64,000 nt of DNA, from assembly GCA_017405525.1 (NCBI GenBank), contig JAFRAH010000006.1, positions 62,001 through 126,000 of the forward strand, given 5' to 3'. Every line of letters begins with the position of its first letter. Position 1 is the first letter of the stretch. This document shows positions 62,543-64,000 of the stretch, piece by piece. The notes beneath the pieces were generated by a model. It saw nothing but the letters and a program-made list of their open reading frames with translations. It was not told the origin of the DNA and did no database searches. The DNA comes from Synergistaceae bacterium (GTDB lineage: Bacteria > Synergistota > Synergistia > Synergistales > Aminobacteriaceae). Made by a program: the position numbers and the translations under genes.

Positions 62543-63079
62543 TTACTCCTCTATTATGATGGTCTTTATGACTACGTCCTTTATGGGTTTGTCCTGCCTG
62601 TTGGTCTCAGTGTGGCCTATTGCCTCGACGATGTCCATTCCCTCGATGACATGGCCGAATATTGCGTGATGTCCGTCAAGCCACGGTGTAGGCACTAGGG
62701 TGATGAAGAACTGTGAGCCTCCAGTGTTCGGGCCAGCGTTCGCCATTGAGAGGATGCCGGGAGCGTCATGCCTGAGACCTTCGCCGAACTCGTCAGGGAT
62801 AACGTAGCCGGGGCCTCCGCGTCCTGTACCTGTTGGGTCGCCGCCCTGTATCATGAAGTTGTCGATTACCCTGTGGAAGATTACGCCGTCATAGAAATTC
62901 TTTGCGGCAAGGTCAGTGAAGTTCTTGACGGTGTTAGGGGCAAGGTCGGAATAGAGCTCAATCCTGAAATCACCCATTGAGGTCTCGAACTTTGCGACGG
63001 GTCTTTTTGCGGGCTCGTCAGCGAATGCCGGGGAACATACGAAAGCGAGTGCGAGGACTTCACATATGAACTTGTACAT
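62543..63079 (-). CDS. Secreted cyclophilin-type peptidyl-prolyl isomerase
   Basis: The 178-residue protein begins at ATG 63079 (AAGGAGG in good position) with signal peptide YKFICEVLALAFVCSPAFA, followed by the cyclophilin fold: FETSMGDFRIELY, VIFHRVIDNFMIQGGDPTGTGRGGPGY, GILSMANAGPNTGGSQFFITLVPTPWLDG and HAIFGHVIEGMDIVEAIG. The catalytic Arg lies in FHRVI. It probably folds proteins outside the cytoplasmic membrane. It is the first gene of the ten-gene minus-strand run. Confidence 0.93.
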   Translation of the reverse strand: MYKFICEVLALAFVCSPAFADEPAKRPVAKFETSMGDFRIELYSDLAPNTVKNFTDLAAKNFYDGVIFHRVIDNFMIQGGDPTGTGRGGPGYVIPDEFGEGLRHDAPGILSMANAGPNTGGSQFFITLVPTPWLDGHHAIFGHVIEGMDIVEAIGHTETNRQDKPIKDVVIKTIIIEE

Positions 63080-63159
63080 GGTGAAATATTTTCCTCCTTC
63101 AAATCTGGAATGCCTGATTATAATATCACTATTCACAATCTCAAAAAGGACAATGAGCA

Positions 63160-63930
63160 ATGAATCTCTTTCTGCCTGAAATGACAGCCTCAAGGTATAA
63201 GAGCAACTCCCAGATAGTGAGGGTACTTAGTGAGGCATGGATGAAGAACGAGATGTACTGCCCTTCCTGCGGGAATGAAAGCCTGGTGAAGCTCCCGAAC
63301 AACTCAAGGCTTGCGGATTTCCAGTGTGAGGCCTGCGGTGAAATATACGAGCTCAAGAGCAAGGGAAGCCCAATCGGGAAGAGCATACTTGACGGGGCAT
63401 ATTACGCCGCGCTTGAACGGATAATGAGCAGCACTAACCCTAACCTTTTCGTGATGCGTTACAGTGCCGGACGTGTCGAGGCTCTGACGGTGATACCCAA
63501 GCACTTCTTTACGCCCGGTGTCCTGAAGATTCGGCCTGCACTTTCTCCCACTGCAAGGCGTGCGGGGTATGTAGGCTCGTGGATAATGTATGACGAGATA
63601 CCTGACGGCGGGAAAATCCCGGTAATCGAGGCACATACTGAACGGGACAAAGGCAGGGTGATTGAGGATTATGCGCGGGCTGTGAGGCTGAAGATTGGGA
63701 ACATAGACCTGCGGGGCTGGCTTATGGACATTCTGAGATGCACTGATAAGATCGCTGACGAAATATTTTCACTGGATGACATTTACGCCTTTGCTGGTGA
63801 GCTCAGAGAGAAGCACCCTGACAACCACAACGTAAGGGCAAAAATCCGTCAGCAGATGCAGTTTCTCAGGGACAAGGGATTTATTGAGTTTCTTGGCGGA
63901 GGAAGGTACAGGAAAATCGCAAGGAGGTAA
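63160..63930 (+). CDS. dpnI: DpnI-like type IIM restriction endonuclease (predicted to cut methylated GATC)
   Basis: The 256-residue protein is colinear with DpnI. It shows YKSNSQIVRVLSEAWM, zinc cysteines C34, C37, C56 and C59, and the PD-(D/E)xK set D53, E64 and K66 in ADFQCEACGEIYELKSK. It continues with LSPTARRAGYVGSWI and a C-terminal winged helix KIRQQMQFLRDKGFIEFL, the m6A-reading domain of DpnI. It would cleave Gm6ATC in incoming DNA. AAGGACAATGAGCA precedes the ATG. No methyltransferase is beside it, as expected. It is followed by a DpnD/PcfM-like gene start. Confidence 0.93.
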   Translation: MNLFLPEMTASRYKSNSQIVRVLSEAWMKNEMYCPSCGNESLVKLPNNSRLADFQCEACGEIYELKSKGSPIGKSILDGAYYAALERIMSSTNPNLFVMRYSAGRVEALTVIPKHFFTPGVLKIRPALSPTARRAGYVGSWIMYDEIPDGGKIPVIEAHTERDKGRVIEDYARAVRLKIGNIDLRGWLMDILRCTDKIADEIFSLDDIYAFAGELREKHPDNHNVRAKIRQQMQFLRDKGFIEFLGGGRYRKIARR

Positions 63931-63934
63931 TGAC

Positions 63935-64000
63935 ATGCCAAAGTTTAGAGTTCTCATAACAGAAATATTGACAAAAATTGTTACTGTTGAGGCCAAAGAC
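63935..64000 (+). CDS. Start of a DpnD/PcfM-like protein (partial, cut by window edge)
   Basis: ATG 63935 with AAGGAGG overlapping the dpnI-like stop encodes PKFRVLITEILTKIVTVEAKD, which matches the opening beta-strands of DpnD/PcfM proteins (K-F-x-V-x-I-T-E-x-L-x-x-x-V-x-V-E-A). DpnD is encoded with DpnI or DpnC in pneumococcal Dpn systems and its role is unclear. Only 22 codons are visible. Confidence 0.65.
   Translation, partial: MPKFRVLITEILTKIVTVEAKD

Follow-up and report, generated by a model that had tools for sequence, protein, structure and literature searches.

A DpnI-type restriction unit that probably displaced a resident DpnA-methylase/DpnII system in a Synergistaceae genome

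How a gene for a DpnI-type enzyme came to lie between a ppiB-like and a ymdB-like gene of a Synergistaceae genome, and whether it is a working one, is the question raised by the window analysed here, a stretch of 64,000 nt. DpnI is an enzyme that cleaves DNA only when GATC is methylated. The best explanation, to which we assign a probability of roughly 0.87, is that the window carries a working DpnI-type unit that would have displaced a resident DpnA-methylase/DpnII system at the ppiB-ymdB slot. The host is a Synergistaceae bacterium of the ruminant gut, with a genome (G000; other G-numbers denote relatives) of 2.17 Mb that is 99.4% complete. Those relatives that carry names belong to the same family and habitat and are MAGs ('uncultured Fretibacterium', Synergistaceae bacterium RGIG). 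The relatives compared below are mostly metagenome-assembled genomes, in which single stops may be assembly errors.

The gene (dpnI, dpnC-like) occupies 63160..63930 on the plus strand with its stop codon at 63928-63930, and encodes a complete DpnI of 256 aa, consisting of a PD-(D/E)XK catalytic domain, a zinc ribbon and a C-terminal winged helix. The predicted product matches Pfam DpnI (PF06044) with 195.3 bits (E=9e-58) over residues 1-177, Pfam DpnI_C (PF17726) with 106.1 bits over residues 185-252, the solved R.DpnI (4esj/4kyw) with 208.9 bits (E=8e-61) over residues 10-253, and the PADLOC mREase_II model for type II methyl-directed restriction enzymes with 264.6 bits; these matches are far above chance level and confirm the DpnI identity predicted for the ORF. 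An alignment with 20 relatives showed that the catalytic residues D53, E64 and K66 and the zinc cysteines Cys34/37/56/59 are kept at the DpnI positions, confirming the numbering that the sequence-only reading had given, and that Q18, L128, R134, G139, K228 and R230 are also DpnI residues. The reader domain, which the same reading had called intact, does keep both winged-helix residues (K229 and R231 of DpnI, K228/R230 in the window protein); Trp138 of the methyl pocket, however, is Tyr137. Of the methyl-binding cleft of DpnI (L129, R135, W138 and G140), L, R and G are kept. The window protein resembles R.DpnI in its full length, both domains and D53/E64/K66 and differs in this Tyr, the sole change at the mapped methyl contacts. 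Tyr is fixed at this position in all 14 DpnI proteins of the family, and Trp is found in five other Synergistota.

This substitution, together with the broken copies in G036 (a stop and C37Y) and G050 (212 aa), could be taken to mean that the window DpnI is a decaying or inactive passenger homologue without restriction function, a possibility that we consider very improbable on the following grounds. In R.DpnI, W138A almost abolishes activity, whereas replacement of W138 by Phe, His or Tyr leaves the enzyme partly active (Mierzejewska et al. 2014, PMC4117772), and His or Tyr at position 138 is found among natural DpnI homologues (PMC4117772); the change to Tyr is, as far as these comparisons indicate, a tolerated one. 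The remaining catalytic, zinc and DNA-reading residues tested are all kept, and dN/dS against the slot-mates is about 0.12, the deeper pairs being near saturation in synonymous divergence. Purifying selection acts on DpnI.

Behind the dpnI stop lies the 5' part of a DpnD/PcfM-like gene on the plus strand (63935..64000 in the window, running to 64189 past it; 84 aa), which matches PF14207 with 39.2 bits (cut-off 25). The sequence-only reading had correctly named this partner but had counted five bases between stop and start; there are four between the stop codon and the dpnD ATG at 63935. DpnD adjoins DpnI in nine of the 14 family loci and is missing from the adjacent position in five, and PF14207 genes are also present away from DpnI. 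An AlphaFold2 model of DpnD had a mean pLDDT of 50 and no confident fold, and the gene is frame-broken in G061.

The ppiB-like peptidyl-prolyl isomerase gene forming the left flank of the slot (62543..63080, minus strand) was identified from its ORF and the slot survey, and the left edge of the replaced segment, beside this divergent gene, was placed at 63138..63159 by blastn of locus L002 against L188 (window coordinates are L002 positions plus 60999). Inspection of the genes beyond 64000, as the sequence-only reading had advised, revealed the end of dpnD and, directly 3' of it, a dpnII pseudogene on the plus strand (about 64196-64495), followed by a ymdB-like gene in the opposite orientation (64549-65349, minus strand). 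The pseudogene matches PF04556 with 107.8 bits over profile positions 167-265 of 278 and is interrupted by stops; the presence of this pseudogene, just past the window end, explains why dpnI sits at the ppiB-ymdB slot. We surveyed this slot in 30 ymdB loci of the genus. It is empty, with ymdB and ppiB directly adjacent, in 13 loci; in G036 the order is ppiB, DpnA-type methylase, full DpnII and ymdB, and G046 has an intact DpnA-type methylase and DpnII pair beside ymdB. The arrangement of DpnI, with or without DpnD, followed by a dpnII fragment is found at this slot in three genomes (G000, G061 and G062). DNA homology between G000 and G036, as detected by blastn, ends at about 63138 and returns at about 64221 within dpnII. 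These junctions and the content of the G036 slot indicate that DpnI-DpnD took the place of the methylase gene together with the front portion of dpnII. By the DpnII and DpnI trees described below, the replacement at the ppiB slot looks old and single, other slots having apparently been replaced separately. Farther along the same locus (L002:7123-8817, window coordinates 68122-69816, past the window), we noted a gene whose 565-aa product has an Mrr_N domain and an Mrr catalytic domain separated by a long acidic Pro/Glu-rich linker; it matches a PADLOC type IV methyl-directed enzyme model, and a homologue occurs near the ppiB-ymdB slot in G061 and G062.

The presence of R-M debris of the GATC type beside DpnI is not confined to this slot. 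Strong matches to such debris were found at 10 of the 14 family loci (G000, G022, G026, G035, G036, G044, G061, G062, G065 and G066), while none was detected next to DpnI in G025, G034 and G047, or within 1.5 kb of DpnI at five loci elsewhere in the phylum; the loci of G025 and G047 and these five speak against the displacement. At the remaining family locus, that of G050 (L102:7501-8139), DpnI ends at 212 aa with most of the winged helix missing and a 28-residue dpnII trace adjoining it. In G066 of genus g11 (L103:5411-6820), the order is reversed, i.e., methylase fragment, DpnD, DpnI and dpnII fragment.

Because the order DpnI-(DpnD)-dpnII fragment is seen at several loci, one may suppose that these genes travel as a single mobile unit, which inserts at various sites and carries the dpnII fragment along, and that no resident R-M system was displaced, and to this disfavoured view we give about as little credit as to an inactive DpnI. 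In the DpnII tree, the remnants of G000, G061 and G062 cluster with intact DpnII proteins from the slot that they occupy (99/97), the G026 remnant clusters with DpnII of G051 (100/99), and a single clade for the seven dpnII remnants tested, as a single origin would have it, was rejected (p-AU 0.001). The same slots hold intact R-M systems in relatives: DpnI-DpnD-dpnII fragment of G026 comes after the same gene of about 400 aa as intact dpnA-dpnII in G053, G042 and G051. The truncation points of the dpnII remnants vary from locus to locus, and the debris at the uvrC slot is that of a different methylase and nuclease. In G031, the methylase at this slot is intact and DpnM-like (E=2e-73 against DpnM, 2dpm) and is accompanied by a DUF6996/6997/7226 nuclease; in G035 and G036, DpnI lies there between debris of a DpnM-like methylase and of a DUF6996/6997 nuclease. 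Judged from these trees and gene neighbourhoods, the data show that the swap to DpnI took place several times, independently, in the family. The DpnM-like methylase followed by the DUF6996/6997/7226 nuclease (L117:6168-8127 in G031) recurs as a pair in several other members of the genus, and probably constitutes an R-M system for GATC whose nuclease belongs to an unnamed family.

If DpnI is active, a GATC-methylating system should not be found with it. Among the 43 genomes of the genus, an uninterrupted DpnI is present in 11 and an intact DpnII or DpnM-like system in 18; both are intact in one genome against 4.6 expected (Fisher p=0.011, kinship ignored). This sole overlap, G034, combines an intact DpnI with a DpnM-like methylase, also intact, in a bin that is 64% complete, and a piece of rpoD on the contig of the methylase is 97.7% identical to another rpoD of the same bin. 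The bin is probably of mixed strains, and this second rpoD copy weakens G034 as proof of coexistence. In G036, which has an intact DpnII system, DpnI contains a stop and has lost zinc cysteine 37.

For the host itself, the sequence-only reading had claimed that GATC must not be adenine-methylated, and the gene content of the genome supports this: searches with the listed families found no DpnM-, Dam-, DpnA-like or phage-Dam methylase. The best DpnA-like match (62 bits) is the partner of an MvaI/BcnI-type nuclease, and the N6_N4 methylases either pair with nucleases of the MvaI/BcnI and CfrBI types, or resemble type III Mod proteins, or are fragmentary. The single strong D12 methylase matches NCBIfam 'dam' (TIGR00571) with 187 bits; it is encoded next to a nuclease of the EcoRV type (PF09233, E=2e-110), from which the expected target of the methylase is GATATC, and we rejected it as a candidate GATC methylase. 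The pair is located beside a coaD-like gene (G000:C26:46469-48199; L017:628-2358), and the 'Dam family' label on an EcoRV-type partner is a likely annotation trap when DpnI hosts are checked. That host GATC is nevertheless methylated by an unrecognised or phage-borne enzyme, with DpnI restrained by DpnD or through weak expression, is the least probable of the alternatives, since the frequent neighbourhood of DpnD and the 'Dam family' call, which might favour it, are set against the EcoRV-type partner, the lack of any other such homologue in the host searches, and the five family loci where DpnI has no adjacent DpnD. Of the 16 four-base palindromes, GATC shows the strongest depletion in window positions 1-64000 (102 seen, 189 expected, observed/expected 0.54); the motif is also scarce in relatives with either GATC system, and its depletion is therefore no test of DpnI alone.

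DpnI is present in 14 of 83 family genomes and in 19 of 188 phylum genomes, and this patchy spread agrees in part with the earlier suggestion of horizontal transfer. The phylogeny that had been proposed as a check gave no sign of a recent streptococcal import: the DpnI proteins of the family form one clade (100/99), within which the five ppiB-slot copies form a subclade (97/92). On account of these two clades, the window DpnI is best read as a copy passed down in its lineage since an old replacement in situ. A recent transfer marked by anomalous GC content was not seen (51.1% for DpnI, 51.9% for the window), and with regard to a plasmid or phage vehicle, full-length matches to DpnI were found only in two chromosome-sized Neisseria records filed as plasmids, and none in phages. 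Outside the phylum, one DpnI from Saccharibacteria shows 36% identity, and no DpnII or DpnM debris was found beside it.

The displacement of a resident system by a working DpnI unit may be pictured as follows. DpnI would cleave incoming Gm6ATC DNA, i.e., that of phages, plasmids and strains with Dam- or DpnII-type methylation, and would be harmless to the host because GATC of the host is presumably no longer methylated. Self-toxicity would act in two ways, DpnI killing methylating cells and DpnII killing non-methylating ones; a cell could neither keep an active GATC methylase together with DpnI nor drop the methylase while DpnII is active. One exchange that took out the methylase along with the 5' portion of dpnII would have disarmed both lethal enzymes and left the dpnII 3' end behind as a pseudogene, and the scars fit the shape of such a single exchange. 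Similar scars would be expected of an alternative course, in which DpnII decayed and DpnI entered afterwards. The activity of DpnI, the unmethylated state of host GATC, the one-step swap and the defence role are thus what we infer.

In Streptococcus pneumoniae, the DpnI cassette consists of dpnC-dpnD and the DpnII cassette of dpnM-dpnA-dpnB. The two are described as alternative cassettes of one chromosomal slot (PMC3573125, citing Lacks 1986). The present locus is similar in that DpnI is accompanied by DpnD and that GATC systems of opposite methyl-dependence alternate at one slot. Unlike in pneumococcus, a dpnII pseudogene persists behind DpnD in the window genome, the slot system of relatives is DpnA and DpnII without DpnM, the swap is visible at several slots of one genus, and Trp138 is Tyr in the window DpnI. 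In Neisseria, the DpnI homologue Drg (product of the dam-replacing gene, drg) is encoded within a GATC methylase locus in which dam is truncated, and the exclusion between dam and drg is exact (PMC4269198, PMC516771). The window protein is only 36% identical to Drg. In both cases (NmeBII and gonococcal Drg on the neisserial side) remnants of a displaced GATC system adjoin the DpnI homologue, whereas the lost system here includes a DpnII nuclease and replacements occurred at several slots. In Neisseria gonorrhoeae NZ_CP119142.1 (L210:5029-5757), we also observed, directly following drg, a frame for a DpnA-like methylase that is interrupted by one in-frame stop and shares 55% identity with Synergistaceae DpnA. 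It represents debris of the same type in another phylum and agrees with the 'DPNIIB-like enzyme' of the drg literature (PMC4269198, PMC516771).

A more general view, to which we give even chances, is that DpnI settles only where a resident GATC methylase and its nuclease fall together, self-toxicity dictating the sites, and that three kinds of GATC R-M system have been hit repeatedly in one bacterial family, namely DpnA with DpnII, DpnM-like with DpnII, and DpnM-like with the DUF6996/6997/7226 nuclease. If this is true, the DUF6996/6997/7226 protein would be a GATC-specific restriction enzyme, which offers a tentative specificity for nucleases of this unnamed family. While the pneumococcal DpnI/DpnII alternation and neisserial drg are known, the occurrence in the phylum Synergistota and the repeated, well-preserved scars are new. 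The alternation is thereby widened from streptococci and Neisseria to Synergistota, where remnants of the displaced system point to the direction from DpnII to DpnI as well as to its repetition; they suggest a simple rule for the sites at which methyl-dependent nucleases can enter, and make the order of the swap events testable.
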